Assembly: GCF_900156625.1 (NCBI RefSeq)
Contig: NZ_FTOB01000004.1
Coordinates: 1 to 64,000, forward strand
Origin: Zobellia uliginosa
GTDB taxonomy: Bacteria > Bacteroidota > Bacteroidia > Flavobacteriales > Flavobacteriaceae
Reading direction: 5' to 3'
Length of the DNA: 64,000 nt
The position numbers were made by a program, and so were the translations under genes. The notes below the pieces were generated by a model. It did not search any database. It was not told the origin of the DNA and saw only the letters and a program-made list of their open reading frames with translations. Numbering within the stretch: the first letter of the stretch is position 1; each line of letters starts with the position of its first letter. Of the stretch, positions 315 to 49,632 are shown one piece after another.

Positions 315-359
315 TTACAGATTTCCGTAAACTTAAAAGCGGGACTTTATCTAGATTTG
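315..359 (+). promoter_or_regulatory. Palindromic operator plus -7 element (site 1)
   Basis: An imperfect 16-bp palindrome, TTACAGATTTCCGTAA, lies at 315-330 and is followed by TAGATTTG at 352-359, a full match to the Bacteroidetes -7 consensus TAnnTTTG. The palindrome centre is 29.5 bp before the -7 element, which places it near -42 from the predicted transcription start at about 366. That is a class II activator position. The same arrangement recurs at four other places in the first 10 kb. It should drive the nuclease-fold gene starting at 381. Confidence 0.7.
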
Positions 360-380
360 TAGTTCACCAAAACTCGTCCC

Positions 381-1193
381 GTGTTTAGAAAAATCATAAT
401 TTTTGCCATATGCTTCCTTTCGCTGACGGTCGTTGCACAAAAAAGTGAGATCAAACTGGTGTCATGGAACATTCAAGACTTTGGTAAGACCAAGAGTAGT
501 GAAGAGCTAGAGCAAATGGCCGAGCTGGTCAGGGAATATGATATTCTCGCTATTCAAGAGGTAGTTGCGGGTTATGGCGGTGCCCAAGCCGTAGCCAAAC
601 TATCGGATATCCTGAACCGAAAGGGCGCTAAATGGGACTACCTTATCAGCAATCCTACCAACAGTCCTAAATACGTCACGGAGCGCTATGCCTTTATTTG
701 GAAGACGAAACACATTAAGATCAAAAACCGGGGGAAACTCATTCAGGAATTGGATAGCCTTGTCGATAGGGAGCCTTTTTTGGTAGACTTTTTTATTGGG
801 GACAAAAAGTTGAGCCTGATCAATTTTCATTCTAGGCCCTATAATAAAAGACCGGAGGGGGAAATAAAGGCCCTGACCCATTACATCAGCGAAAATTTTA
901 CGAACCCTACCATTCTAGCAGGGGATTTTAACGTTAACGAGGCCATGTCGGTTTTTGACACTTTTAAAGAAAACGGCTACCGCGCCTGCATTTCCGATAC
1001 GAAGACCACCCTGAAAAGGGTGTGTAATGGGTATGACTACCTCAATCACCCTATTGATAATATGTTTTATTCCGAAGACATCCTAAAAACCGATAGCGGG
1101 GTACTCGATTTTATACGTATTTGCGACAACCTTGAAATGGCAAGACGATTATCGGATCATTTGCCTGTTTTTTTGAGGTTTCGATTGGAGTAG
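381..1193 (+). CDS. Secreted endonuclease/exonuclease/phosphatase-fold protein
   Basis: A 270-aa protein of the DNase I-like superfamily, predicted to cut DNA or hydrolyse phosphoesters outside the cytoplasm. The start is a GTG followed directly by a signal peptide of about 19 residues ending in VVAQ. Hallmark motifs appear in order: SWNIQDFG with the metal-side Asn, AIQEV with the catalytic Glu, GDFNVN, and a C-terminal SDHLPV with the Asp-His pair. Length fits a minimal single-domain member. It is monocistronic, convergent with the gene ending at 1194, and controlled by the palindrome promoter just upstream. The substrate cannot be told from sequence. Extracellular DNA or nutrient scavenging is an inference. 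Confidence 0.85.
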   Translation: MFRKIIIFAICFLSLTVVAQKSEIKLVSWNIQDFGKTKSSEELEQMAELVREYDILAIQEVVAGYGGAQAVAKLSDILNRKGAKWDYLISNPTNSPKYVTERYAFIWKTKHIKIKNRGKLIQELDSLVDREPFLVDFFIGDKKLSLINFHSRPYNKRPEGEIKALTHYISENFTNPTILAGDFNVNEAMSVFDTFKENGYRACISDTKTTLKRVCNGYDYLNHPIDNMFYSEDILKTDSGVLDFIRICDNLEMARRLSDHLPVFLRFRLE

Positions 1194-1727
1194 TTAACCG
1201 CACTTACACCCCTTGCCAACTATCCATTTACAACAAGGGTCCGCTTGACATGGAGCTTTGTTCTTGTTAGAACAACCACAATTTGATGTCGTAGCGCAGT
1301 TTTTTATGCTATTGCCGGGCTCTTCACATGCCATACCGTCCTTGTCTGCATCTAGGTCATTCCTGCATTCGGGATCCGCATCATAGGCAGCCTGTGCCGC
1401 AGCTTGAGAGGTGTAATTGGCACAATTTGTATCCCTACAGTCATTCGTGCTGCTGCTGATGTTGTCAATTTTTTCGCTATCGCTGCTCGTACAGGAAATC
1501 AAGGTGAGAACCAATGAAGATATAAATATAACAACCAAGCATCCACTGCTTTTTGTTTTACTGAATGTCTTTCGATAGGTTAAGCCTGGTATTCCTGTTC
1601 TTATGGAATATCCTTTGGAGCTAAGGCTTCCCCTTTTGGTCCTGTAACTTGGTGTAATTCCGGACTTACTGACATTAATTCCCAATCCTTTTATCAATTT
1701 TATCCTTTTGTTGAACCTGAAGGCCAT
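1194..1727 (-). CDS. DUF4236 and Excalibur domain membrane protein
   Basis: A 177-aa protein with an N-terminal DUF4236-type segment (residues 1-55, FRFNKRIKLIKGLGINVSKS and PGLTYR), one membrane segment around residues 62-80, and an Excalibur-type calcium-binding motif near residues 95-135 with the ligand string DADKDGMACE. A Cys-rich tail follows (CGCSN, CQADPCCKW). Excalibur domains are often found on extracellular proteins, so the C-terminal half is probably outside. It is last in a tight four-gene operon, 2 bp after the vWA-like lipoprotein gene. No function is assigned. The Cys density at the tail suggests disulfides or metal binding. Confidence 0.7.
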   Translation of the reverse strand: MAFRFNKRIKLIKGLGINVSKSGITPSYRTKRGSLSSKGYSIRTGIPGLTYRKTFSKTKSSGCLVVIFISSLVLTLISCTSSDSEKIDNISSSTNDCRDTNCANYTSQAAAQAAYDADPECRNDLDADKDGMACEEPGNSIKNCATTSNCGCSNKNKAPCQADPCCKWIVGKGCKCG

Positions 1728-1729
1728 AA

Positions 1730-2638
1730 CTATTCCTTTAAAATAAATCCTTGTATCACTTTTTCCATATTCGAAGGCAAATCGGCCTGTTTGATCTCGA
1801 AATTTTTAACATTCATTTCGTTGAGCCATTTGGACCAATATGCCCTGATGATGTCTTCTTCGTAAGGGTTTTTGTCATCGGGATTGATACCTAAAACCAA
1901 CACTTCTAAATTGGATAAATCTTTATTTGGGACTATAAAACCAAAGTCTTGTTGTTCAAATTTGTCTTTCCATCCAGGTTTATTAAATCCAAAACGCTTT
2001 ACATCTTGAGGGGTCAGGTAGGTTGTTCTGTTCCCTTCCTTGATTTTAGTGTCCTTATGATAGATATAACCATCGGTCAAAACCACTAGTATATTTCTGT
2101 GATTATCTTCAATACAATAGTCGTTCACCTTGTTTTTGAAGAAACGCCATGTATCGGATCCAACATAATGGTCATCGTTGATGGCTGCTTCATAAATAAG
2201 GGTTGAAATACTATCGTATTTTTTGCAAGTCATTAGTATATCCTCTTTTGTAACATTATTTCTGTTGAAAGAAATTTTAAGGGCTCCGAGCTTTTTATTT
2301 AGGGTCTTATCGGAAGGTTCTGGGTCTATAAAAACTTGGATTTTGTCATCTATTTTTATCATTCTTTTATTCATGATATGAGCTTCGAAATTCTCAGCAA
2401 TAGATTTTAAGTAACCAACATCCCTCAGGTAGAACTCCATTGCGGGAGAAGGATATTTTTTTGGATTTATTCGGTCTGATAAATCTAAAAGTACACTAAT
2501 GTTTAAGTTCTTATTCGCAGTAACTTTTGGAAATTCGTGGTCGTGCATGGGCTCTTCTGACTTGGGGTCCTCTTTGCAAGAACTAAGGACAACAGGTATT
2601 AGTGCCAATATCGTAAGGGTTAGGAAATATTTTTTCAT
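1730..2638 (-). CDS. vWA-like lipoprotein
   Basis: A 302-aa predicted lipoprotein with lipobox LSSC at about residue 20. Residues 47-200 look like a von Willebrand A fold: a hydrophobic strand ending in the MIDAS-like DLSDR, and later a strand ending VVLTDGY. The usual DxSxS is DxSxR here, so metal binding may be changed. It sits between the coiled-coil membrane protein gene (4 bp upstream) and the DUF4236-Excalibur gene (2 bp downstream). Its role is unknown. The operon partners suggest it belongs to a small envelope complex. Confidence 0.65.
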   Translation of the reverse strand: MKKYFLTLTILALIPVVLSSCKEDPKSEEPMHDHEFPKVTANKNLNISVLLDLSDRINPKKYPSPAMEFYLRDVGYLKSIAENFEAHIMNKRMIKIDDKIQVFIDPEPSDKTLNKKLGALKISFNRNNVTKEDILMTCKKYDSISTLIYEAAINDDHYVGSDTWRFFKNKVNDYCIEDNHRNILVVLTDGYIYHKDTKIKEGNRTTYLTPQDVKRFGFNKPGWKDKFEQQDFGFIVPNKDLSNLEVLVLGINPDDKNPYEEDIIRAYWSKWLNEMNVKNFEIKQADLPSNMEKVIQGFILKE

Positions 2639-2642
2639 CTTG

Positions 2643-3905
2643 TTAATTTATTAGTTTATATAATCGTCCTTCGTAACTTTCATCGGCTATATCGTGCTCC
2701 TCTAAGTGCTTTTTTTCTTCAATAGAGCAAAGGGACAATAGTTGATCCCTCCTTTTTAAATCATCAAAATTATCTGCTATGCCCAAGAACCATCCTTTTA
2801 CGTATTCGGCATGATAGGTGAGGTAATGTTTATTGGAAAACACAAAACCATCGATTGTACGTTGCAGGTCATTTATTTTGCCTTCGATTCCTGAGATTTC
2901 CTCCTTTATTGGGCTTAGCTTCTCTGTTTGGTTCAATATCTCTTGTTCGTGGTTTTTTATATCTTCTCTTTTGGACCTAATGAAGGTTTTTATTTTGTCG
3001 AAATTGTCATATTCTTTCATAATGAAATCAAATACCAACCCCCAAATAATGTATACCACAAAACCTGCGAATATTATGCCCCAAAATTCCGCCTTGATAA
3101 AAGCTATTTGTACGTTGAAATCTGGAGAATTCAGGGTTTTTTCTATGTCATATATCTTCTTTTCTATTTGATAGGCAAGTATTGCGTCAAAAATAAAAGT
3201 GATTATAAACAGCGTTCCTATTTTTACATAAGACAGCCAATTTTTGTGTTTCTGAAACATATGAATGAGATATCCTAACCCCATAAATGCGAAGGGAATC
3301 GTAGCTACAAAAACCCCTTCAAGCCAACCATCTTTGATGGCTTTGGTAAGGGCGTTGGCATCGAAAATGGCGTTGGTGAGTTGTTCCGTGTCAAATGTTT
3401 TGAAAAATGCGGAATAGGAAGCCGAGATATAGAAAACTAATAGGTAAAACGTAATTGGAATGATGACAATCAGACCTAGGTAAAATTGCGCCTTGGGTTT
3501 TTTGTCGGCATCTTCCACATATTTTTCGGGGTTGTGTTTGACATCGGCTATTTCGTTTTTAAAGATTGAAATTTTGTTTTCCAAACTAGTGATGCCTTCT
3601 TCTATAATGCCCTTGACGGTCTTTCTTTTTTTTAGTTCAATTTCGAATTTGCTCTTCTCTTGAACGTAGGGTTCTTTCAATTCTTTTTGGAGCTTTTCGT
3701 CTTCCCTACATTTACCTTTATAATCCATATAAACATCTTGCAAACACGCCTTAAATATCATGTGGTTGCCCGCTGCTTGTTTTGATGAACCGTAGCCGCT
3801 TTCAAAAAAAGTAAGTTTGATTTTTTTTGAGTCTTCCTCTTTCGGTTTCTCTATTTTTTGAGGGGCAGTCTTTTTTACGGAGAATATTTTTTTTATTGCG
3901 CTCAT
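2643..3905 (-). CDS. Coiled-coil integral membrane protein
   Basis: A 420-aa protein of no recognised family. Residues 60-125 and 305-355 are charged and heptad-like, predicted coiled coils, flanking about four membrane segments near residues 142-163, 193-213, 228-247 and 272-295. The N and C termini are therefore probably both cytoplasmic. The N-terminal 30 residues are Lys-rich and the protein ends in a mixed alpha-helical tail. It starts one base after the stop of the TerB-like gene and is followed 4 bp later by the vWA-like lipoprotein gene, so the genes are surely co-transcribed. Confidence 0.6.
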   Translation of the reverse strand: MSAIKKIFSVKKTAPQKIEKPKEEDSKKIKLTFFESGYGSSKQAAGNHMIFKACLQDVYMDYKGKCREDEKLQKELKEPYVQEKSKFEIELKKRKTVKGIIEEGITSLENKISIFKNEIADVKHNPEKYVEDADKKPKAQFYLGLIVIIPITFYLLVFYISASYSAFFKTFDTEQLTNAIFDANALTKAIKDGWLEGVFVATIPFAFMGLGYLIHMFQKHKNWLSYVKIGTLFIITFIFDAILAYQIEKKIYDIEKTLNSPDFNVQIAFIKAEFWGIIFAGFVVYIIWGLVFDFIMKEYDNFDKIKTFIRSKREDIKNHEQEILNQTEKLSPIKEEISGIEGKINDLQRTIDGFVFSNKHYLTYHAEYVKGWFLGIADNFDDLKRRDQLLSLCSIEEKKHLEEHDIADESYEGRLYKLIN

Positions 3906-3906
3906 A

Positions 3907-4311
3907 TCAGTCTTGCATTTTAGCGATTAATTCTTTTTTGGAAATTTTTGCCTTTGCATTCTCAAGAAGAAATTCACATATGTCATCAATATTCTCCTCT
4001 AAAAATTCAAATTTTAGACAATACTTTTTTAAGGTATTTGTCTCGTCTTCAGTTGCGATGCCATCTGCCCAGATCATTAATGCCAAATCATAGAGGTATT
4101 CTATTTTTTCTTCTAAAGATTCTGGAATTGCCGAGTTTTGGGAAGGATTTAGCAGTATCTCGTTTAATTGATCTTTGCTGAGCCCTCTTTCTTCTGCAAA
4201 ATTGTAAAGCATTTTTAATTCTTGAATATCAAAATTATCGTCGGCAAATGCCATTTGATAAAGCCTTAGGAAATGACTTTTTAGTACGGTCGATACATTT
4301 AATTTATCCAT
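3907..4311 (-). CDS. TerB-like small helical protein
   Basis: A 134-aa all-helical acidic protein resembling the TerB/tellurite-resistance fold. It has repeated Asp/Glu-rich loops typical of TerB metal sites (FADDNFDIQE near residue 20, and WADGIATEDE near residue 82). I chose the internal Met that begins MDKLNV. The extra upstream 24 residues are Arg/Lys/Cys-rich, unlike the family, and would overlap the neighbouring small gene. First gene of the four-gene operon running to 1194. TerB proteins are linked to envelope-associated metal and phage stress systems. A similar job here is inference. Confidence 0.6.
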   Translation of the reverse strand: MDKLNVSTVLKSHFLRLYQMAFADDNFDIQELKMLYNFAEERGLSKDQLNEILLNPSQNSAIPESLEEKIEYLYDLALMIWADGIATEDETNTLKKYCLKFEFLEENIDDICEFLLENAKAKISKKELIAKMQD

Positions 4312-4366
4312 AGTTTTAATATTGGTTTTTTTTGATTTGATATATGGTTTCCTTTGTCTAGAACAA

Positions 4367-4543
4367 CTAGCATAATAGTTCAAGGTAAATTGTGCCTGAA
4401 ATTGTTATTAGCAGGAGTACAAATTTTAGGCAACCCTGACGCTTATTGCTAGGTGTTGATTTTTTGTTTTTTGAACTTTTGTTTACAAAATGGCCTTGAA
4501 CGTAAGTGCCATCTTTTTTGTAGTATCCTTTTCTGTAGCCCAT
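4367..4543 (-). CDS. Small basic protein with C-terminal membrane helix
   Basis: A 58-aa protein beginning MGYRKGYYKKDGTYVQGHF, a basic, Tyr/Gly-rich motif I have seen in small bacterial proteins of unknown role. A hydrophobic C-terminal helix follows near residues 39-56. A longer reading from a TTG at 4597 is unlikely, because the -7 element TAGGTTTG (4580-4573) lies inside it. Transcription should begin near 4566, leaving about 23 nt of leader before the ATG at 4543. It is controlled by palindrome site 2 and its 3' end reaches into the leader of the TerB-like gene. Confidence 0.55.
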   Translation of the reverse strand: MGYRKGYYKKDGTYVQGHFVNKSSKNKKSTPSNKRQGCLKFVLLLITISGTIYLELLC

Positions 4544-4572
4544 CGGTTTGTGGTTGGATGTTCTTGGTTTTT

Positions 4573-4617
4573 CAAACCTAATACCATTGGCGGACAATTC
4601 CTTACGGATATCCGTAA
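4573..4617 (-). promoter_or_regulatory. Palindromic operator plus -7 element (site 2)
   Basis: The perfect palindrome TTACGGATATCCGTAA lies at 4602-4617. On the minus strand TAGGTTTG (4580-4573) follows at exactly the same spacing as in site 1 (29.5 bp from the palindrome centre). A TTG resembling a -33 element lies between them. The spacer is nearly identical to that of sites 3 and 4, sharing GACAATTCCTTACG or close variants on the plus strand. It drives the small gene starting at 4543. Confidence 0.75.
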
Positions 4618-4620
4618 TGC

Positions 4621-4650
4621 AAAAAAGAACGGCACGGGGCCGTTCTTTTA
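4621..4650 (-). terminator. Rho-independent terminator
   Basis: The stem AAGAACGGC / GCCGTTCTT with a 5-nt loop is followed by a run of T on the minus strand. It lies 20 bp after the stop of the small secreted protein gene at 4670 and insulates the palindrome promoter next to it. Confidence 0.8.
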
Positions 4651-4669
4651 AGAAAGGTCGGTATGGTGT

Positions 4670-4888
4670 TTAATCTTCCCAGCCGCATAAGCCTCGCCCT
4701 ATTTCCTTGGCTTGGTGGAGCGGTACTTCGTAAATACGTGTGGAACAGCGTGACAATCCGCGGCAGTTTTTTACGTAATGGTATTTTTTGCTTCCCTTTC
4801 CCTTGCAGATATAGACGGTGGTTTCGCTTGGCGTAGAGGGCCCGAAAGACAAAAGCAATAGTGCTAAAAGAACTTTATTCATTTTCAT
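4670..4888 (-). CDS. Small secreted Cys-rich protein
   Basis: A 72-aa protein with an N-terminal signal peptide (about residues 1-20) and a mature part carrying YICKGKGSKKYHY, then NCRGLSRCS and a final GLCGW. Four conserved-looking Cys and a His in the mature part suggest disulfides or a metal site. It overlaps the upstream restriction-fragment gene by 14 bp, and a second start (MNKVLL, 4882) is equally possible. Similar small proteins occur in many Bacteroidetes but I know no function. A terminator follows 20 bp downstream. Confidence 0.6.
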   Translation of the reverse strand: MKMNKVLLALLLLSFGPSTPSETTVYICKGKGSKKYHYVKNCRGLSRCSTRIYEVPLHQAKEIGRGLCGWED

Positions 4889-5099
4889 AAAAATCTACGG
4901 TTTGCCATAGGGCTTCTTCAAATTGATATAGGTCTTCCAAGGCGCCTAGGGCCTGCCTGGTTTCGCTCTTGTCTTCATTGATCAGGCCCAAGTATTTGGT
5001 GGTGCCGTTAAAATGAAGTCTACAAAGCGGTTTTCTATTGTTGTCGTCCAATAAGATGCCAAAGTATGATTGGGTGTCCCTGTGGGCGATTTGTATCAA
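4875..5099 (-). CDS. Restriction-endonuclease C-terminal fragment-like protein
   Basis: A 74-aa reading frame with no internal Met. The start used is a TTG next to the stop of the preceding gene. The string YFGILLDDNNRKPLCRLHFN strongly recalls the C-terminal segment of HsdR-N/type IV restriction-like proteins of Bacteroidetes, where it precedes a helical tail similar to the one here. The nuclease core is absent. It may be a stand-alone antitoxin-like or accessory piece, or the relic of a larger gene lost by deletion. The repressor-like gene upstream and the overlap with the gene downstream show it is within a compact transcript. Confidence 0.45.
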   Translation of the reverse strand: MIQIAHRDTQSYFGILLDDNNRKPLCRLHFNGTTKYLGLINEDKSETRQALGALEDLYQFEEALWQTVDFYENE

Positions 5100-5100
5100 C

Positions 5101-5445
5101 TTAATCCTTTTTCTTTTTTTGATTTTCTAGAATCTCACCAACATCAAGTACTAGTCTAGCTAGTGCTTTTTCTATTCTGTCAAACTCCTTAGTATAGTCA
5201 ACAATAACCGGAACATCTTGCTTGTTGTTCCTTCTTAGCATCTTACCCTCACCAGTTAACAGCCACACAGGGTCTACTTCTGGGAACACCTCAAACACCT
5301 TATTGAGCACCGTATCCTTTACTGAGGCTTTATTTTTTTTAGCGGCAACCAAAGTCATATTTGACAGCCCTAACTTCTTTTCAAACGCGCTAATAGCATG
5401 GTTGTAATGCTCTGCAACCTCGAACACTCTTTCTATCGTAGTCAT
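5101..5445 (-). CDS. Phage-repressor-like HTH protein
   Basis: A 114-aa protein matching the N-terminal half of Bacteroidetes prophage repressors: an HTH-like first 60 residues (NHAISAFEKKLGLSNMTL, then VLNKVFEVFPEVDPVWLLTGEG) and a short charged tail with a leucine-rich helix instead of a peptidase domain. It probably binds DNA and could regulate this cluster of small genes. It is first in a three-gene overlapping set ending at 4670. No other phage gene is nearby. Confidence 0.6.
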   Translation of the reverse strand: MTTIERVFEVAEHYNHAISAFEKKLGLSNMTLVAAKKNKASVKDTVLNKVFEVFPEVDPVWLLTGEGKMLRRNNKQDVPVIVDYTKEFDRIEKALARLVLDVGEILENQKKKKD

Positions 5446-5557
5446 TGATTTGTTTTTTTTTGATAAAGTGAAAAGTTTTCTTGTTTACGTTTATCGACTT
5501 CCTTCCTTAAAATTTTCAAATGGTTTTTCACCTTCCATTTTTGAGGCTTATAAAAGG

Positions 5558-5707
5558 CTAGTTTTTACAGCCGTTTTTGCTACAGGTGATAGGTTTGCTC
5601 GTATTTGTCCAATGACTGGGGCGCTCGGTCGTATCAAAACCGCATCCCGTAGTTCCTCCTTTTAATCCTTGGTGGATCTCTCCTGTGGCTATGTGCTTTA
5701 CTGGCAT
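5558..5707 (-). CDS. Unannotated 49-aa small Cys protein
   Basis: This short frame begins at an ATG at 5707 and encodes 49 residues ending ITCSKNGCKN, with an internal GTTGCGF. The closing pattern (SKPITCxxxxC) resembles small zinc-ribbon-like phage or plasmid proteins. Support comes from context: palindrome site 4 and a -7 element lie upstream with the same geometry as at sites 1-3, giving a leader of about 22 nt. The opposite-strand frame over the same bases looks like non-coding translation. Function unknown. Confidence 0.5.
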   Translation of the reverse strand: MPVKHIATGEIHQGLKGGTTGCGFDTTERPSHWTNTSKPITCSKNGCKN

Positions 5708-5735
5708 GGTATTTTTGGTTTTACTTAGTGATGTT

Positions 5736-5780
5736 TAAATGTAAAACCGTTGGTAGACAATTCCTTACGTAAAACCGTAA
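5736..5780 (-). promoter_or_regulatory. Palindromic operator plus -7 element (site 4)
   Basis: TTACGTAAAACCGTAA at 5765-5780 is a diverged copy of the palindrome. On the minus strand TACATTTA (5743-5736) matches seven of eight bases of TAnnTTTG at the standard 29.5-bp spacing. The flank GACAATTCCTTACG is identical to site 2. It predicts transcription of the 49-aa gene starting at 5707. Confidence 0.6.
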
Positions 5781-5967
5781 AGGGCGAAAATTGTTTCGTA
5801 TAAATTGTAAAAAGGGTGGGGCTCCCTTCTGTCGGATCCCTGCTATAACAAGGGGTTAACCATGTTTTGGCTGTCCCTATGGACGAGGGGTTTTCTTATA
5901 TTATTAAAGACCGAACCCGCAAATTTGATGATCCCCCAACCACCTCATAGGCGGGCCGGCCTTATGT

Positions 5968-6171
5968 TTAATTATGGCATTCTTTGCAACAACGGATACA
6001 GGCGCTGGTTTTTTGGTACATTTTGCCGGCTTCCATGACCGCCCCCTGACAGGTAGGGTGAAAGCCTAGGTCGGTCTTGCTTAAGATAAAGGCAAGCAGA
6101 TTACAGTCGTGTTTGTGTACTTCGTAATTGCCGTTGCTTTGTCTGGTGTTGTTTACGTAATATTTGATCAT
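5968..6171 (-). CDS. Small Cys/His-rich protein
   Basis: A 67-aa protein starting MIKYYVNN. It contains YEVHKHDCNLL, HPTCQGAV and the closing CIRCCKECHN, a spacing of Cys and His that suggests zinc binding. It belongs to a type of tiny hypothetical proteins seen in Bacteroidetes (YEVHK, then a Cys-Cys pair near the end). A longer reading from TTG at 6189 is excluded because that TTG is part of the -7 element of palindrome site 3. The leader is short, about 10 nt. No signal peptide, so it is cytoplasmic. Confidence 0.6.
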   Translation of the reverse strand: MIKYYVNNTRQSNGNYEVHKHDCNLLAFILSKTDLGFHPTCQGAVMEAGKMYQKTSACIRCCKECHN

Positions 6172-6186
6172 CGGGTAATTTTCGGC

Positions 6187-6236
6187 CAAACTAATACCAT
6201 TAATAGATAATCCCTTACGGATTTCCGTAAGGGATT
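6187..6236 (-). promoter_or_regulatory. Extended palindromic operator plus -7 element (site 3)
   Basis: TTACGGATTTCCGTAA at 6215-6230 is embedded in a longer inverted repeat at 6209-6236 with perfect 13-bp arms. On the minus strand TTTG at 6190-6187, preceded by TAG, gives a -7-like element with a gap one base shorter than at sites 1 and 2. It drives the Cys/His-rich gene starting at 6171. Confidence 0.7.
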
Positions 6237-6278
6237 AAAAAATTGGTCGGGCGGTTAGAAATTTATGATACAGTCGTG

Positions 6279-6944
6279 CTATATCCTGCCTTCCTTGATC
6301 AGTTTGGCTATAAGGTGTTGGATGTTTTTGGCCCCGAAGGCGTCAAATAAGCGGCTTACTTTTTTGTCGATGGTACTTTCGCTATTGGGCGAAATATTTT
6401 GACGTTTGAGTTTTTCCGAGATTTCTTTTTTGGTCAAGCCTTCGGCAAGGTCTTGCAAGATCATACGGTCGTACTTGTCCAGTTCAAAAATAGTGTTGGC
6501 ACTATTCAGGTTGATCTGGGGGGAAACATAGGTCCTGTTCTGATAGGCCTCTTGTATGGCGGTCACCAGTTCGTTGAGTCCGTTACGGCCTTTACAGACA
6601 TAGGCGTTTATCTTCAGATCGGTAAAAAGCGGGTTGATCTCGACCGGATTGTCTATCATGGAATTGACAATGACCTTTATGTTCGGGTCGATGTCCCTGA
6701 CCGCCTTGATAAGGGCTTGGCCTGAAGTCAGTTTACGGGCCGCTGGCCCTTCTTTGAACGAAAGGTCGGTTATTAAAAGCTCATAGGGCTCCCCTTCGTT
6801 AAAGGCTAACTTAAACCTGTTGTACGCTTTGTCGCAATAAAGTTCTTCTTGTATTTCTTCAATCTGCAGTCGATTTTCAAGGGCGTTAACGATGCCTTTG
6901 TTCGTGTCTTGGAAGTCTTCTGCAATCAGTATTTTTTTGAACAT
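6279..6944 (-). CDS. NarL/LuxR-type response regulator
   Basis: A 221-aa DNA-binding response regulator. The receiver domain (residues 1-125) has the acidic pair AEDF and the phosphoacceptor Asp60 in LLITDLSF. The C-terminal helix-turn-helix (about residues 150-221) carries the LTKKEISEKL motif. I took the ATG at 6944 rather than the GTG at 6953. It follows the TPR histidine kinase gene by 12 bp and is presumably its phosphorylation partner. Such regulators usually bind palindromic DNA, so it is one candidate for the TTACGGATWTCCGTAA sites, though nothing in the sequence proves this. Its own operon has no copy of the site. Confidence 0.85.
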   Translation of the reverse strand: MFKKILIAEDFQDTNKGIVNALENRLQIEEIQEELYCDKAYNRFKLAFNEGEPYELLITDLSFKEGPAARKLTSGQALIKAVRDIDPNIKVIVNSMIDNPVEINPLFTDLKINAYVCKGRNGLNELVTAIQEAYQNRTYVSPQINLNSANTIFELDKYDRMILQDLAEGLTKKEISEKLKRQNISPNSESTIDKKVSRLFDAFGAKNIQHLIAKLIKEGRI

Positions 6945-6956
6945 AGTCTGCACTAT

Positions 6957-8888
6957 TTAATTCGGAATTTCAATTTGGGCGCTAAAACCATCACCCTTTT
7001 CTGAATCAAAAGTAAGACTTCCATTGATGGCTAGAATACGCTTTTCCGTATTCCATAGTCCATTTTTATGATTTAAATTATTTTTTGAGGCACCTTTGCC
7101 GTTGTCGGTGTAGTTGACTTTTAGCTTTTTTTTCAAGGCTTCAAAGTGTATCGAGACCATTGTGGCTCCACTGTGCTTCTGCATATTGATCATAAGTTCC
7201 TGAAGCGCTTTGTACAAGGTTTTTTTGCTGAGTTCCGGCAGTTTGTCCCAATCGATTTCAGTACTTCCGGTGACGATCAATTGGGTGTTTCTACAGTAGC
7301 TGCTCAGCATACCGAAAAGGATTTCCTTGAACTTTGGGCCAGTGTCGATGTCGTTGATTTTCCTTGAAAAGTTCCTGCTTTGGTTGTAGAGGCCATCGAT
7401 GACGTTCAGTACCTCGGTATCGGGCGCCCCGTTTTGCAGCAATACCATGGCATGGTTTAGTTTGCCCGCGAAATCGTCGTGTAATTTTCTTGACAGTTCT
7501 GCTTCGGTGGCATAGGTGGCTTCTATTTTTGCGGTTTTATTTTCCTGTTTTAGGCGTTTGGCGCGCTGAACGGAAAAGAAGCCCGCGAAAACCGAAACGA
7601 GCACGATCAAGGCCAGGCCCGAGTAGGATATAATTTTTTGGTTGCGTTGCTTGGCCGCTTCCAATTGGTGTTCGGCACTCTCCTTTTCTAAATGGAGAAT
7701 GGATTCTTGCTTTAGCTTGTCGTCGTACCTGTATTTGGCAAATTGGGTCTTTACCTTTAATTCTTGGTCGTAAAGGCTATCCTGTAAAAACACATAGCGG
7801 TCCCTTATTCCGATAGCCTTGGGAGCGAGTTGCATCAGCTGTTTCAGGGCATCTTTTTCCGCCCGTGGTATTTTTAGCGATTTGGACAGTTGAATGACCG
7901 AATCGAGATAAGAACGGGCCTTTACGGGATTGCTTTTACTATGGAATTCCCCCAAATGGGTATAACTGGCGATCTGCCCCCTTTTGTCTTTTTCTTGAAT
8001 TCGCATGGACAAGGGTTTTTTAAAGGCCTCTTCTTCTATAGGAAGCCCTGATAACCATTGGGCATAGGCCAGATTGTCCAAGACCCGGGCGTATTCTTTT
8101 TGGTTTCGGCCCAAGGTGCTGTCCTTTACAAGTTTGTTCAAGAGTTCCATGGCCTTGTCGAAGGACTTGCTGTCGATATACGTGGCTGCCAAATTGTTCT
8201 TGTAAAGCAGGCGGTCATGGGCACTTTCTTCAATGTGTATGGCTTTTTGATAGTAGTCTATGGCATCGGAAAAGTTCAGTAGCTTTCTATGGTTGGTAGC
8301 CAAAGCGTTGTAGCAATGGGCTACTTTCTTGGGTTTTTTTAAAAATTTTAAGGCATCGGTCAGGGTTTCTTTGCTTCCGAAAAAATCATTGTTGTTTTTT
8401 TGAATGGTACCTATGTTCAGCAGGTTTATGCCAATTCTACTACTATCCTTCAACTGTGTATAGTATTCTTTTGAGAGGGAATAGTTTTCAATGGCCTTGT
8501 GGTAATCGTGTTCCACTTCTGAGAAATAATAGCCCATTAGATAGTATTGTTCTGCCAGGAGCGATACTTTCTTGATTTTCGGGGCATGGTTTGCCAGCTG
8601 ATCGTGGTATATACGTAAGCTGTCGTATTCCTTTGAAAGCAGATGGAGCAGGCTCTTTTGAAAGAGTACAGGGCCGTACAGACTGTCTTCAAGGTCGTTT
8701 TTTAAATATTGGTAGGATCGGTTGATGGCCTGGTAGCGTTCTTTTACGGAAAGTGTTTTTTCCCTGGCTCGCTTATAGTGAAATAAGGCACTGTCGATAT
8801 CCTTGCCCTCTTGGGAGAGGGGTTTATCATGCTTTGATGTGCAGCCGAAAAGCAAAAAACAGAACACAATGAGTGCAAACCTATTCAA
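6957..8888 (-). CDS. TPR-domain lipoprotein histidine kinase
   Basis: A 643-aa sensor kinase. It has a lipobox-like FGC at residue 16, a periplasmic region of tetratricopeptide repeats (about 40-340), a coiled segment, one membrane helix (419-441), the phosphoacceptor His470 in SRKLHDD, as in HisKA_3-type kinases, and an ATPase domain with ELMINMQKHS (N box) and YTDNGKG (G1). This layout is common in Flavobacteriia and pairs with NarL-type regulators such as the one encoded 12 bp downstream. The signal sensed is unknown. A tiny secreted lipoprotein gene lies just upstream behind a terminator. Confidence 0.88.
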   Translation of the reverse strand: MNRFALIVFCFLLFGCTSKHDKPLSQEGKDIDSALFHYKRAREKTLSVKERYQAINRSYQYLKNDLEDSLYGPVLFQKSLLHLLSKEYDSLRIYHDQLANHAPKIKKVSLLAEQYYLMGYYFSEVEHDYHKAIENYSLSKEYYTQLKDSSRIGINLLNIGTIQKNNNDFFGSKETLTDALKFLKKPKKVAHCYNALATNHRKLLNFSDAIDYYQKAIHIEESAHDRLLYKNNLAATYIDSKSFDKAMELLNKLVKDSTLGRNQKEYARVLDNLAYAQWLSGLPIEEEAFKKPLSMRIQEKDKRGQIASYTHLGEFHSKSNPVKARSYLDSVIQLSKSLKIPRAEKDALKQLMQLAPKAIGIRDRYVFLQDSLYDQELKVKTQFAKYRYDDKLKQESILHLEKESAEHQLEAAKQRNQKIISYSGLALIVLVSVFAGFFSVQRAKRLKQENKTAKIEATYATEAELSRKLHDDFAGKLNHAMVLLQNGAPDTEVLNVIDGLYNQSRNFSRKINDIDTGPKFKEILFGMLSSYCRNTQLIVTGSTEIDWDKLPELSKKTLYKALQELMINMQKHSGATMVSIHFEALKKKLKVNYTDNGKGASKNNLNHKNGLWNTEKRILAINGSLTFDSEKGDGFSAQIEIPN

Positions 8889-8913
8889 TGGTGGGAAGTA
8901 TTAATAATTGAAC

Positions 8914-8944
8914 ATAAAAAAAGCCATACCCGAAAGTATGGCTT
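8914..8944 (-). terminator. Rho-independent terminator
   Basis: AAGCCATAC pairs with GTATGGCTT around a short loop, and seven T follow on the minus strand. It ends the transcript of the small lipoprotein gene at 8973 before the kinase operon begins. Confidence 0.85.
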
Positions 8945-8972
8945 AAATTACTGAATTTAATCGTTATTTTCC

Positions 8973-9128
8973 TTATCCTCTTGGAGGGTCTGTTGGCGGA
9001 TCGGCATCATCCCCTTCCGTTGCTTGGATATGGTAGAGCTCATCGGTGTCTGCTGTAGATGGGCTGGAGCATGAAAATAAAAACCCGTTCATGATTACGA
9101 CCAAGGTCGCTATATACACTTTTTTCAT
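8973..9128 (-). CDS. Tiny acidic lipoprotein
   Basis: A 51-aa precursor. I used the Met beginning MKKVYIATLV, because it gives a clean lipoprotein signal with lipobox-like FSC at about residue 20. The upstream 21 residues are hydrophilic and probably untranslated. The mature part is about 30 residues, acidic, ending ATEGDDADPPTDPPRG. It lies upstream of the TPR kinase and regulator genes and is separated from them by a terminator. Small peptides with this kind of tail are found beside similar kinases in flavobacteria. A signalling or sensor-accessory role is only inference. Confidence 0.5.
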   Translation of the reverse strand: MKKVYIATLVVIMNGFLFSCSSPSTADTDELYHIQATEGDDADPPTDPPRG

Positions 9129-9299
9129 CTGTTTTGTTGTTTTTTGGACATAGCTGTGGCTGTCCAGATTAGTATTTGGTTTGATGGGCACCGGATTAAG
9201 GGTGCGGAAAAATGAAGGGGCGTCCCCCGGGTTTTTGGAAAGTGGAAATCTTATGCGGAGGTCTTAAGCCGCTTTCCATTCGACTTAATTCTTGCCGCA

Positions 9300-9344
9300 T
9301 TATAGATTTCCGTAAAAATGATTTCTATAGAAAGACTATGTTAG
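9300..9344 (+). promoter_or_regulatory. Palindromic operator plus -7 element (site 5)
   Basis: TTATAGATTTCCGTAA at 9300-9315 keeps the promoter-proximal half-site perfectly and the distal arm with two changes. TATGTTAG at 9337-9344 matches seven of eight bases of TAnnTTTG at exactly the same 29.5-bp spacing. A start near 9351 would precede the ATG at 9381, which is in frame with the membrane-anchored regulator gene. Confidence 0.55.
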
Positions 9345-9512: not shown

Positions 9513-10271
9513 ATGGACGATAATAGGATCAAGAAAATTGTTCAAGAGGCTTTTGACAAGGCAAGGGAGAAATCCGTATCACAAGCAAAATATGCCTTGG
9601 CAAAACAGATAGGGGAAGAGGTAAACCTTAGTTACAGAACTTTAGAACGGGCTTATGATCGTTATATCAATGGAAGGGAAAATCTCGGCCCGCAAAGTCA
9701 AGAAACCATTGATGAATTATGTAGATATATTGGATATAAAGATTATGCCGATTATGTGGACCGGAACTACAGTTCACGGAAAAAAAGGGAGAAAAAAAAC
9801 TTGATAATCGATGATGGAAGAAAGGGGTTTTCAAAAACATGGATGTATGGGGCCATAGCGATAATCGCTATGGGAGGCCTTGTTTGGATGGCCTACACTG
9901 TCGCTATTCCCGAAATAGGAAGCTATAAGGGCTCGAACCAGCTGTGTATGACTTGGGCCGACTCCCTATATCTTGAGGTCGATTGTAACCACATTCCGTT
10001 TTCACCAAAGGGTACCGTGGTAGAACCCTTGGACCCGGTGAGGTTGGCCACTTTCAAAAAGGTCAAGGTTACCCAATCGTACCCCTTCTTTAAAAAAGAT
10101 ACGGGCGAACCCCTGATCTGGTATTTTAAGAATAAGGACGGTAGGATGGAGTATTATACGGCCCCGGGCCTGCACCCCACCAATGGAGAGACCTTGCGTA
10201 AAATTACTCCCTATATCATTCAGAAGTACGTTCCGCTGCATAGTACCCGGGAAGATTCTTTTGTTCGGTAA
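9513..10271 (+). CDS. HTH-type membrane-anchored protein of unknown function
   Basis: A 252-aa protein. The N-terminal 90 residues begin MDDNRIKKIVQEAF and include a helix-rich segment (AKYALAKQIGEEVNLSYRTLERAYDRYI) typical of a Bacteroidetes family with a DNA-binding-like domain. A membrane helix follows at about residues 112-132, then a C-terminal extracytoplasmic domain of about 110 residues with KVTQSYPFF and IWYFKN. An in-frame ATG at 9381 would add 44 residues that look non-coding, but the palindrome promoter at 9300-9344 would fit it, so the start is uncertain. Membrane-tethered regulation is inferred from the layout. Confidence 0.65.
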   Translation: MDDNRIKKIVQEAFDKAREKSVSQAKYALAKQIGEEVNLSYRTLERAYDRYINGRENLGPQSQETIDELCRYIGYKDYADYVDRNYSSRKKREKKNLIIDDGRKGFSKTWMYGAIAIIAMGGLVWMAYTVAIPEIGSYKGSNQLCMTWADSLYLEVDCNHIPFSPKGTVVEPLDPVRLATFKKVKVTQSYPFFKKDTGEPLIWYFKNKDGRMEYYTAPGLHPTNGETLRKITPYIIQKYVPLHSTREDSFVR

Positions 10272-48111: not shown

Positions 48112-49632
48112 CTATTTTGAGAGACTGGAATTCGGAGGCAGGGGCACCCTATTTATTTTACGCCAGGCCACGAGTTCATCGAGCAGGGCCTTGGCGGTTT
48201 TTGGCTGTTCCTTGGCCAAGTTGTTCGCTTCCCTTGGATCCTTCTGTAAATCGTATAGCTCGAGCCTTCCATCGGCCAAAAATTGGATCAGTTTGTACTT
48301 GTCCTTACGGATTACCGAACAGGTACCATGCTTGTATTGGCTGGCCAAATGCCAGAACAAGGGACGTTTTTTAAAATTCTTCTTGTCTTTTTGAAATAGG
48401 GGCGTAAGGGAATTTCCGTCTAGTTGCCCGGTGTAATCTACATGGGCAACATCCATTAGTGTCGGAAAATAATCGGTAACCGAAATGGGAATCTTCGTTC
48501 TTCTGGCTTTTACCTTGCCGGGCCAATGGATCAAAGCGGGAACTTTTATTCCCCCTTCATAAATTTCCCCTTTGGAGCCCCTTAGGTTTAAATTCTCGGA
48601 AGCAATGCTGTGATAGCCATTGTCGGAGGTGATAATGATCAATGTGTTCTCTTCTAAATTATTCTTTTTAAGATACGCCATGATTCTACCGATATTCTCG
48701 TCCATAGACTGTACCATGGTGGCGTAACTGGCCATCCGTTTTTTGTTTTTGCCGATACCTTGTCCCGTTATGGGATCGCCGGCTTTGTTCATGTATTTAT
48801 CAAAAAGCTCATCGTTTCTGTTCTTTATGGGGCGATGTACCGCATAGAAATGAAGGTTGACCAAGAACGGGGCGTTTTTATGGTTGTTCATAAATTCAAT
48901 GGCATCGCTGGCTAGTCGGTCCGTGAGCCATTCGTCATCGGGTTTTGGAGATATAAACGGATTGCTGAACGGGGCACGATATCCTCCACGTTCACTTTTG
49001 TATCCCCCTTCTTCTAGGGCCGGGTCCCCACGAAATGTGCCGCCGACGTTTTTGATAAAGCCCCTGCCTTCGGGGTAGTATTTTTTTACGGCTGGCGTCT
49101 TATGGTTTTCTACCCAAGTGAAATCCCCGGGGCGAGGTTGATTCAATTTTTGCTGTATGGGCCAGTCCATGGCCAGTTCTTTTTCAGGATAGGGCCCCAC
49201 AATATGCCATTTCCCTAAGTGAATGGATTTGTAGCCTGCGGCAGCAAGGGGTTCTGCATAGATGGGGTGTTCCTTTCCGACCGTCCAACGAGAGAAGATG
49301 TTCTCTTGGGCATCACCTTTCTCCAATACGGGAACGGTGTACACCCCGGTCCGGAATGATTGTTTTCCTGTAAAAAGGGCGGCCCTTGAAGGCGAGCAGG
49401 TAGGATACATATAGGCATTATCGAATACCAAGCTCTCTTTGGCCAAGGCATCTAGTGCAGGGGTCTCGAAATAGGTGGAGCCGTTAAAGCCCACATCGGC
49501 GTAACCTAGGTCATCAACAAGAACAAAAATGATATTGGGTCGTTTTTCTTGGGCCCAGTTGAACCCAAACGACATTAGAAATAGCGATAAAATATAAAAA
49601 GAGCCCTTTTTTAGAAGCATGGTGCCAAACAT
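48112..49632 (-). CDS. S1 sulfatase
   Basis: A 506-aa exported sulfatase. The ATG at 49632 directly abuts the stop of the upstream sulfatase, and a second Met at residue 5 is also possible. The signal peptide ends near residue 27 (WAQE). The modified Cys is residue 79 in CSPSRAALFTG. LVDDLGYADVGFNGS, GKWHIVGPYPE and ITSDNGYHSIA define the active site. The WPIQQKLNQPRPGDFTW block is probably a substrate loop. Likely exo-acting. Subfamily not assigned. Confidence 0.88.
   Translation of the reverse strand: MFGTMLLKKGSFYILSLFLMSFGFNWAQEKRPNIIFVLVDDLGYADVGFNGSTYFETPALDALAKESLVFDNAYMYPTCSPSRAALFTGKQSFRTGVYTVPVLEKGDAQENIFSRWTVGKEHPIYAEPLAAAGYKSIHLGKWHIVGPYPEKELAMDWPIQQKLNQPRPGDFTWVENHKTPAVKKYYPEGRGFIKNVGGTFRGDPALEEGGYKSERGGYRAPFSNPFISPKPDDEWLTDRLASDAIEFMNNHKNAPFLVNLHFYAVHRPIKNRNDELFDKYMNKAGDPITGQGIGKNKKRMASYATMVQSMDENIGRIMAYLKKNNLEENTLIIITSDNGYHSIASENLNLRGSKGEIYEGGIKVPALIHWPGKVKARRTKIPISVTDYFPTLMDVAHVDYTGQLDGNSLTPLFQKDKKNFKKRPLFWHLASQYKHGTCSVIRKDKYKLIQFLADGRLELYDLQKDPREANNLAKEQPKTAKALLDELVAWRKINRVPLPPNSSLSK

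Follow-up and report, generated by a model that had tools for sequence, protein, structure and literature searches.

The window, i.e. the whole 64-kb stretch of Zobellia uliginosa DNA that was analysed, carries an operon for a lipoprotein-like peptide, a sensor kinase and a response regulator (RR), together with the neighbouring genes given below. A tRNA scan of the whole window found none.

381..1193, plus strand: endonuclease/exonuclease/phosphatase family protein (Pfam PF03372, 7e-11), GTG start; under site 1
1194..1727, minus strand: DUF4236 plus Excalibur-like protein (PF14020, 1.9e-7); site 2 run
1730..2638, minus strand: 302-aa lipoprotein-like protein; site 2 run
2643..3905, minus strand: 420-aa protein, membrane segments by eye; site 2 run
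3907..4311, minus strand: 134-aa protein, TerB-like by eye; site 2 run
4367..4543, minus strand: 58-aa protein MGYRKGYYKKDGTYVQG, gene 1 under site 2
4670-4888, 4875-5099 and 5101-5445, minus strand: three more small genes after site 3
5558..5707, minus strand: 49-aa protein MPVKHIATGEIHQGLKGGTTGCG, under site 3
5968..6171, minus strand: small protein MIKYYVNNTRQSNG, under site 4
6279..6944, minus strand: RR with receiver domain and LuxR-type HTH, candidate binder
6957..8888, minus strand: sensor kinase with lipobox-like N terminus, TPR region, LHDDF box (H470) and HATPase
8973..9128, minus strand: lipoprotein-like peptide of 51 aa, encoded upstream of the kinase; its tail is acidic/proline-rich
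9513..10271, plus strand: protein with HTH and one membrane segment by eye; under site 5

Judged from its residues and its predicted fold, the product of 6279..6944 is a NarL/FixJ-type RR. The receiver residues D10, D60, S95 and K118 are invariant in 20/20 aligned sequences, the predicted structure (pLDDT 87) places the HTH helices at 157-167, 172-181, 189-203 and 208-217, and the best fold matches are RcsB, spr1814, LiaR and DesR, with full-length matches to RcsB, LiaR, DesR and VraR. With these five proteins it has the two-domain fold, the phospho-acceptor Asp, the Lys and the LuxR-type HTH in common. However, its sequence is so distant from the NarL/FixJ family that both Pfam domains stay below their cut-offs (Response_reg 16.3 of 30.2 bits, GerE 18.6 of 23.5); the best PDB sequence match has an E value of 0.008. 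Such a cut-off is a curated threshold and not a defining property, and the fold evidence outweighs this shortfall. The kinase has a single membrane-length hydrophobic stretch, with a helix within residues 417-443. The peptide gene precedes the kinase gene in at least 52/81 loci (strict filter); its product is a candidate signal or sensor part.

Palindromic sites and their -7 boxes

The earlier note on this DNA had reported a palindrome at five places, and all five sites are present:

Site 1, 315..330, plus strand: TTACAGATTTCCGTAA; -7 box at 352-359, plus strand, TAGATTTG, 6/6 letters
Site 2, 4602..4617, minus strand: TTACGGATATCCGTAA, perfect palindrome; -7 box at 4573-4580, minus strand, TAGGTTTG, 6/6 letters
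Site 3, 5765..5780, minus strand: TTACGGTTTTACGTAA; -7 box at 5736-5743, minus strand, TACATTTA, 5/6 letters
Site 4, 6215..6230, minus strand: TTACGGAAATCCGTAA, perfect, begins 49 bp past the end of the RR gene; -7 box at 6186-6193, minus strand, TAGTTTGG, 5/6 letters, with a rival box TTAGTTTG one base nearer and of equal score
Site 5, 9300..9315, plus strand: TTATAGATTTCCGTAA, 2 mismatches; -7 box at 9337-9344, plus strand, TATGTTAG, 5/6 letters

When up to three mismatches are allowed, the palindrome matches the window 11 times over both strands; ten of these matches belong to the five sites, and one is at 48305. In 100 shuffles the mean was 1.6 and the maximum 6. Both orientations occur, as had been claimed, with sites 1 and 5 on the plus and sites 2-4 on the minus strand. 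At 5/5 sites a TA lies 21 nt past the palindrome end, i.e. 29.5 bp from the centre; the geometry proposed earlier thus applies throughout, but the exception made for site 3, whose box was said to be one base closer, does not by this scoring, the ambiguous case being site 4. The conservation of the spacer between sites 2, 3 and 4 is borne out by a common 47-nt block with 77-79% identity. According to PMC9723704, the F. psychrophilum sigma-A -7 box spans -12 to -5, which puts the palindrome centre at approximately -41.5, close to the -42 suggested before. A TAnnTTTG -7 box combined with an activator-type site near -42, as in a class II promoter of Bacteroidota sigma-A, is hence what is found here.

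The boxes also bear on the starts of two small genes, and the argument made for them in the earlier note holds. For the 58-aa gene, two things fix the start at 4543: where the -7 box lies, and the N terminus MGYRRGYYKKDG of the homologue at locus L091, which fits this start downstream of the box. Likewise, the N termini MKKYYVN or MTKYYVN of relatives (L189, L058) fit a start of the site 4 gene at 6171, again downstream of its box.

Many genes behind the sites have counterparts elsewhere. The site 1 product has a signal-peptide-like N terminus and, by eye, homologues at RR loci L059, L062, L200, L220 and L224. In the site 2 run, homologues were found for the 134-aa protein (L061, L064, L091), for which no tool hit backed the TerB-like reading, and for the 420-aa protein (L061 and others), and the 1194..1727 protein also matched PF05901 below cut-off (0.0017). 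In L211 and L413 an exact motif is followed immediately by a homologue of the site 3 gene, and homologues of the site 4 gene lie behind motifs in L058, L189, L191 and L206. The gene 4670-4888 has a homologue in L079, and the product of 5101-5445 looks XRE-like by eye. A counterpart of site 5 (up to 2 mismatches) occurs at the same place in 7/12 close relatives; for its gene, a Pfam scan from 9525 gave HTH_28 below cut-off (0.0073), and a similar gene exists in L076 (by eye). Most sites in the window do point toward a small or secreted gene, as had been stated for all of them, but site 5 with its HTH/membrane protein does not, and the rule fails in the wider regulon, of which anti-phage operons are a part.

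In the own genome, the palindrome with up to two mismatches occurs at 37 places compared to 21 for the reversed control, and the whole motif (exact form TTACGG-N4-CCGTAA-N21-TAnnTTTG) with up to three mismatches 18 times compared to 12. With up to two mismatches there are 8 places; 4 of these belong to the window, the other 4 to repeats of contigs 12, 13 and 15, and site 2 is the sole exact match. Good sites are thus nearly absent from the rest of the genome, a point against the operator reading. The own-genome enrichment was too weak to be kept as main proof, and the case for enrichment rests on the relatives. The weak signal would be expected if the sites reflected chance plus selection by the reader; that explanation is refuted by the 51 exact motifs against 0 for the reversed control in a family sample of 199 genomes, and by 194 against 0 matches in an order sample of 395 genomes, and we regard its probability as negligible.

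The repeats of contigs 12, 13 and 15 contain a palindrome variant within approximately 130-150 bp between unrelated genes, as would suit a mobile or repeated element, such as a cassette boundary or a stem-loop, in place of an operator. As source of the window sites the repeats were discarded, because only the palindrome region is common (85% over 32 bp with site 4, E 0.04). Moreover, palindrome, 21-nt spacing and -7 box are common across relatives while the spacers differ, the RR-operon sites recur at the same places, and the long conserved flanks that such an element would need at most sites are not seen, which makes this explanation very improbable. Two other site-like words were rejected by eye as coding sequence: ATACGGAAAACCGTAT, approximately 90 bp before the RR start, represents codons for NTENRI in the kinase ATPase domain, and TTACGGTTTTCCTCAA, approximately 1830 bp before it, codons of the signal sequence of the peptide.

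The motif follows the regulator in relatives

A search of the family genomes for the RR gave 84 matches in 75 genomes, from which 80 stretches besides the window were taken as RR loci (two matches were left out and one lay inside the stretch of another). In two slots beside the operon these loci contain 76 sites (up to 1 of 12 mismatches) in 134,816 positions, a slight overcount as a few lie in signal-sequence codons of the peptide (L105, L132, 1 mismatch), compared to 38 sites in 1,410,672 positions outside the slots; L065 and L106 have 6.4 kb in common, so that a little DNA is counted twice. Eight rearranged control palindromes gave 0-1 sites in the same slots, and twenty arbitrary loci of family genomes gave 0 sites in 398,020 bases. 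No site with up to one mismatch was found within 700 bp past the RR stop in 33/80 RR loci, and none with up to two mismatches within 4.5 kb in 9/80. When both flanks of 85 sites were considered, offset 21 had 49 perfect and 78 near (at least 5/6) -7 boxes, and any other offset 0-2 perfect and 0-6 near ones. Such a fixed position argues for the class II activator-type operator that had been proposed, from which we infer activation.

Presence and absence of the motif point to the same partner. In the family sample, 36 of the 38 motif genomes belong to the 75 with the RR (p 3e-16, a value that overstates independence as the genomes are related); in one exception, G112 (64% complete), the motif is present and the RR has no match at threshold. 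The RR was found in 93/94 exact-motif genomes of the order sample compared to 17/301 without the motif, i.e. 17/110 RR genomes there have no exact motif, and the exception G010 has the motif and no RR at threshold. A scan of 84,980 species genomes gave at least 119 stretches compared to approximately 7.5 expected at 50% G+C; among the matches listed, 78/80 titles are Bacteroidota and 28/80 loci have an RR homologue. Flavobacterium johnsoniae strain CI04 (L200) has both motif and regulator. Since motif presence and position track the RR, the binder is very probably this NarL/FixJ-type protein, and the palindrome very probably the docking site of the neighbouring sensor-regulator pair, as far as sequence comparison can tell.

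A close parallel is the ComX-ComP-ComA system. In Bacillus, the genes are ordered comX-comP-comA, ComP is a polytopic membrane kinase, and the isoprenyl transferase ComQ is found next to the ComX peptide gene. The window operon has the same order of peptide, kinase and regulator, and a small peptide gene adjoins kinase and regulator in those at least 52/81 loci, a likeness seen at the level of genes. In contrast, the window kinase, with its TPR region and single membrane helix, is not polytopic, and phylum and target set are different. ComA, a helix-turn-helix RR, recognizes TTGCGG hexamers that form an inverted repeat and are 4 nt apart (PMC4797271); the site described here is likewise an inverted hexamer repeat with 4-nt spacer, with TTACGG as hexamer. 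However, that paper reports that ComA is a poor activator when an inverted repeat takes the class II place, for which it needs a direct repeat, whereas here the inverted repeat itself occupies this place.

Alternatively, another protein of the locus could bind the site, for example the product of 5101-5445 or of 9513-10271, perhaps as a repressor over the -33 region. Each of the two genes adjoins a site, with site 5 in front of the HTH membrane gene, and from -42 a palindrome could equally keep the polymerase out. Yet the almost perfect tracking of the regulator in the order sample, and half-sites laid out as for ComA, a dimer of the NarL/FixJ type (PMC4797271), render this improbable.

The operator had been presented as lacking a published name, and none was found in the literature searched. 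Operator, regulon and peptide were not described in that literature, where subscription journals were thinly covered, nor in the available parts of PMC7807042, PMC4797271 and PMC9723704.

With good confidence we read the palindrome as the operator of a two-component system that would act by class II activation on a local and an anti-phage regulon. The small lipoprotein-like peptide (8973-9128) probably gates the kinase (6957-8888) with its periplasmic TPR region, which would phosphorylate the NarL/FixJ-type regulator (6279-6944). A regulator dimer would then bind TTACGG-N4-CCGTAA with each protomer on one half-site and the centre at -41.5, replace the -33 element and recruit sigma-A RNA polymerase to TAnnTTTG. 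Locally, the sites at operon ends would drive the small proteins, the nuclease and the five-gene run; in relatives, the regulon would reach unlinked anti-phage systems, with switchable immunity as presumable purpose.

Anti-phage systems behind distal sites

Behind a minority of RR-distal motifs, one that still exceeds the control, whole anti-phage systems were found, i.e. Hachiman, Gabija, Wadjet, Shango, Kiwa and IetAS, as well as CRISPR-Cas9 and restriction types I-III. At least nine kinds of defence system have their own motif before the first gene.

The distal targets came from two sets. Set 1 comprised 100 loci, with 72 sites that have a gene and no RR in the stretch (among the matches listed); 64 were scanned (30 + 35, one protein in both), leaving out the 83-aa gene of L208 and seven proteins shorter than 60 aa. 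Set 2 comprised 60 stretches with 61 sites from the order-sample matches listed, chosen by place and spacer before the genes were seen, and RR-proximal-looking spacers were skipped. Nine of its sites had an RR in the stretch and two had no gene; 50 remained, and 45 were scanned (all except L376, L377, L401, L422 and L428). For L378, L385, L409 and L427 the gene scanned was not the first but the largest with a start inside 600 bp, while the control set had first genes throughout. The two sets may share some genomes, and L221 and L422 are one site.

At E up to 1e-50, PADLOC matched 20/109 distal targets (among the matches listed) compared to probably 3-4/90 control genes, the latter from 20 own-family stretches at arbitrary round coordinates, whereas set 2 is mostly from other genera. 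The control count was taken from a family table with 8 rows and 4 names (DpdF, PsyrT, RT, mREase_IV); the control genes include a RecQ-like helicase and a reverse transcriptase, one of each, which makes 3-4 likely, with 8 as ceiling. Fisher's test, run once with 110 and once with 109 targets, gave p 0.002 with 4 control members and 0.04 if the 8 family rows are separate proteins. By this general measure the immune enrichment is moderate.

Operator and regulator could also be as described and serve a general envelope, starvation or density regulon, with defence as a chance minority. At 1e-10, no PADLOC hit was obtained for 82/109 distal targets (among the matches listed), many targets are lipoprotein-like and small, and defence genes cluster in islands and can carry a promoter along. 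But repeated gain or retention would then be required, as no fewer than nine defence kinds each come with a separate motif, and we consider such a general regulon rather unlikely.

In Proteobacteria, quorum sensing controls CRISPR-Cas. The anti-phage regulon would resemble this in that a signal system would set the expression of immune genes; it differs in that one operator stands before many unrelated systems, and in Bacteroidota. A peptide-gated immunity switch, in which a secreted lipopeptide, the TPR kinase and the regulator turn on acquired anti-phage systems, is possible and put forward tentatively. If true, defence cassettes bearing the promoter code would plug into the switch of their host, immunity in Bacteroidota would be set by density or by signals of dying neighbours, and the code could guide the discovery of new defence genes.

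The operator code bears on the question of how bacteria time the expression of immune systems, which are costly, and the palindrome may indicate a common immunity switch in bacteria. One code stands before the at least nine defence kinds in Flavobacteriaceae, Chryseobacterium, Elizabethkingia, Pedobacter, Sphingobacterium and others, and the motif-bearing groups include ones with laboratory strains and genetics. The control motif had no hit in the 395 genomes, and a code of such specificity can serve for searches, which may reveal defence genes not recognized so far, for example among the small proteins and the five-gene run of the window. Hence, the promoter code offers a direct test of regulated immunity.

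The palindrome and its promoter geometry

An earlier note on this DNA had claimed five 16-bp palindromes at a fixed distance from a promoter box, and a pattern scan of the window found all of them, packed within 9 kb around a two-component system:

315-330, + strand: site 1, TTACGG-N4-CCGTAA or variant (as sites 2 to 5)
4602-4617, - strand: site 2
5765-5780, - strand: site 3
6215-6230, - strand: site 4
6279-6944, - strand: LuxR-type response regulator gene
6957-8888, - strand: sensor kinase gene
8973-9128, - strand: 51-aa peptide ORF
9300-9315, + strand: site 5

With up to three mismatches, and with the strands counted separately, the pattern matched 11 times in the 64-kb window; 10 of these matches fall on the five sites. 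In 100 shuffles the mean was 1.6 and the maximum 6. The fixed distance holds as well, because the TA of the -7 box (TAnnTTTG) lies exactly 21 nt past the palindrome end at all five sites, and each box keeps at least 5 of its 6 fixed letters. Since the sigma-A TAnnTTTG box of F. psychrophilum spans -12 to -5 (PMC9723704), the palindrome centre falls at about -41.5. The similarity seen among sites 2, 3 and 4 amounts to a common 47-nt block. Next to site 2 on the + strand (4620-4650), an inverted repeat rich in G+C and accompanied by a T run looks like a terminator by eye.

The genome-wide enrichment expected by the note was weak in the own genome (5.30 Mb, 27 contigs), where the window makes up the initial 64 kb of contig 6, and evident in relatives. 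In the former, the palindrome with up to two mismatches occurred 37 times compared with 21 for the reversed control, and the whole motif with up to three mismatches 18 times compared with 12; taken alone, these counts would not prove a regulon. In contrast, the exact motif (TTACGG-N4-CCGTAA-N21-TAnnTTTG, 18 fixed letters) was found 51 times in 38 of 199 genomes of the family, in which the reversed motif had zero matches and about 0.03 chance matches are expected (assuming 640 Mb and 35% G+C).

The regulator and the sites beside it in relatives

A regulator homologue (E 1e-30 or better) is encoded in 75 of the 199 family genomes. We scanned 80 regulator loci besides the window for TTACGG-N4-CCGTAA, counting mismatches over 12 letters. 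With at most one mismatch, 76 sites fell in two slots flanking the kinase-regulator operon (134,816 positions), compared with 38 in the remainder of the loci (1,410,672 positions); eight rearranged palindromes gave 0 or 1 match each in the slots, and 20 arbitrary loci (398,020 bases) contained no site. In 47 of the 80 loci a site follows the regulator stop by no more than 700 bp; at this level 33 lack one, and 9 had no site within 4.5 kb even at two mismatches. When both flanks of 85 regulator-near sites were read, a perfect box stood 21 nt past the palindrome in 49 and a 5/6 or better match in 78; other offsets from 0 to 71 reached at most 2 and 6, respectively. The offset rule was thus recovered independently of the window sites that suggested it, and the palindrome is nearly certainly a real operator with fixed promoter geometry.

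Motif and regulator also occur together. Among the family motif genomes, 36 of 38 belong to the 75 with regulator (p 3e-16), and in the own family within an order sample the motif was found in 37 of 51 genomes with the regulator and 1 of 25 without it (p 5e-9); because the genomes are related, these p-values should be read with caution. The whole order sample gave 194 exact motifs (table sum) in 94 of 395 genomes, confined to 2 of 16 families, and zero control motifs; 93 of these 94 are among the 110 genomes with a regulator at E 1e-25 or better. Across 84,980 species genomes at least 119 stretches matched the exact motif, where about 7.5 chance matches would be expected for the entire set at 50% G+C. 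Among the matches listed, 78 of 80 titles name Bacteroidota (Flavobacterium, Chryseobacterium, Elizabethkingia, Kaistella, Pedobacter, Sphingobacterium, Mucilaginibacter, Winogradskyella and others), and 28 of the 80 loci encode a homologue of the regulator, which in most cases is closely followed by a site. The remaining two (contigs L157 and L187) come from a MAG with the label Bifidobacterium breve and are probably Bacteroidota sequences binned in error; L187 also carries the regulator. Genomes of one family (f5; G216, G281, G294, G419, G433, G460, others) often encode the regulator twice, the copies being separated by about 0.8-1.1 kb.

The kinase and the upstream peptide

The regulator, encoded with a TPR-containing sensor kinase between sites 4 and 5, is of a known class. 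Its Pfam scores fall below the cut-offs; D10, D60, S95 and K118 are kept in 20/20 aligned sequences, and the predicted structure (pLDDT 87) matches full-length RcsB, spr1814, LiaR and DesR. It very likely binds the palindrome and is likely to act there as an activator. The kinase combines a lipobox-like N terminus, the TPR region, one membrane helix, an LHDDF box and an ATPase domain, a layout that would place the TPR part on the periplasmic side. Upstream of it, 52 of 81 loci, window included, encode a candidate signal, a peptide of about 50-60 residues that combines MKK, a hydrophobic stretch, a lipobox similar to FSC and a tail that is either acidic or rich in proline. The strict filter behind this count is too narrow, as among the 29 loci that it passed over at least L091 has such an ORF.

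In gene order (peptide, kinase, regulator) and in the layout of its sites, the system resembles ComX-ComP-ComA; ComA recognises an inverted repeat of TTGCGG, for which a 4-nt spacer is optimal. However, the kinase architecture differs, and ComA works badly when the repeat at the class II position is an inverted one (PMC4797271 for both ComA statements); on these grounds, membership in that system was ruled out.

Genes behind the operator

Regulator-near sites precede small conserved proteins, DUF4236-like proteins, endonuclease/exonuclease/phosphatase and secreted proteins, and several such targets of relatives have counterparts in the window. Away from the regulator, 20 of 109 scanned targets (9/64 and 11/45 in two sets) had PADLOC hits at E 1e-50 or better, and 27 at 1e-10. 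Control genes probably gave 3-4 hits of 90 at 1e-50 (RecQ-like helicase, reverse transcriptase, type IV enzyme model), with a ceiling of 8, so that p is 0.002 with 4 control hits and 0.04 with 8. Motifs stand ahead of whole defence systems.

Table. PADLOC systems behind the motif (L, locus; E-values)
Hachiman, L160: HamA 2e-87, HamB 2e-261
IetAS, L190: 2e-133, 0
Gabija, L390: 4e-198, 9e-263
Wadjet, L425: JetA 1e-213, JetC 1e-296
Shango, L431: SngA 6e-36, SngC 7e-207
Kiwa, L416: 7e-75, 6e-111
Cas9 and Cas1, L181: 7e-73, 4e-115
Restriction type III, L421: 7e-190, 1e-137
Restriction type I: L313, L378
Type II methylases: L174, L222, L418, L419
Lamassu-type LmuB, L429: 2e-92 (first gene without hit)
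Candidate systems: L157, L314, L318, L382, L409

At L181 (7794-7867) a single palindrome is flanked by two perfect -7 boxes, each at offset 21, and could therefore drive cas9 and something divergent together.

In the own genome, eight places match the whole motif with up to two mismatches; half of them are in the window and the other four on contigs 12, 13 and 15. Both contig-15 sites are one base off the core and have the box TAAATTAG; one precedes the candidate PDC-S02 (4e-154), the other a gene without hit and then an Avs4-like gene (2.5e-35). A repeat of about 130-150 bp lies between unrelated genes on these contigs (L006, L007, L009, L434; 12 BLAST pieces in this genome). It holds the variant TTACGTAAATCCGTAA-N21-TAAATTAG, and after the repeat come GTTGTTRGGC-like letters, which resemble integron attC sites; this may be a cassette array with defence genes. 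In G069, contigs 1 and 13 (L316-L318) carry four copies of the exact motif that have much the same spacer (AAAAACC...CCCTAT) but precede different genes, one matching PDC-S28, and may reflect a spreading promoter cassette.

Other targets include a secreted-looking family of about 180 aa ([ST]E/STR[KQ]FI...I.KDW) directly behind the motif at L165, L306, L311, L391 and L393, one of them in G010, the sole order-sample motif genome without regulator. At L375 (671-1838), an ATP-grasp-like protein and a 66-aa ORF, as read from sequence, look like a peptide natural-product pair.

A search of mainly open-access literature found no description in print of the operator, its link to many immune systems or the peptide partner. 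Although rival explanations exist, immunity is likely a main purpose of the regulon.
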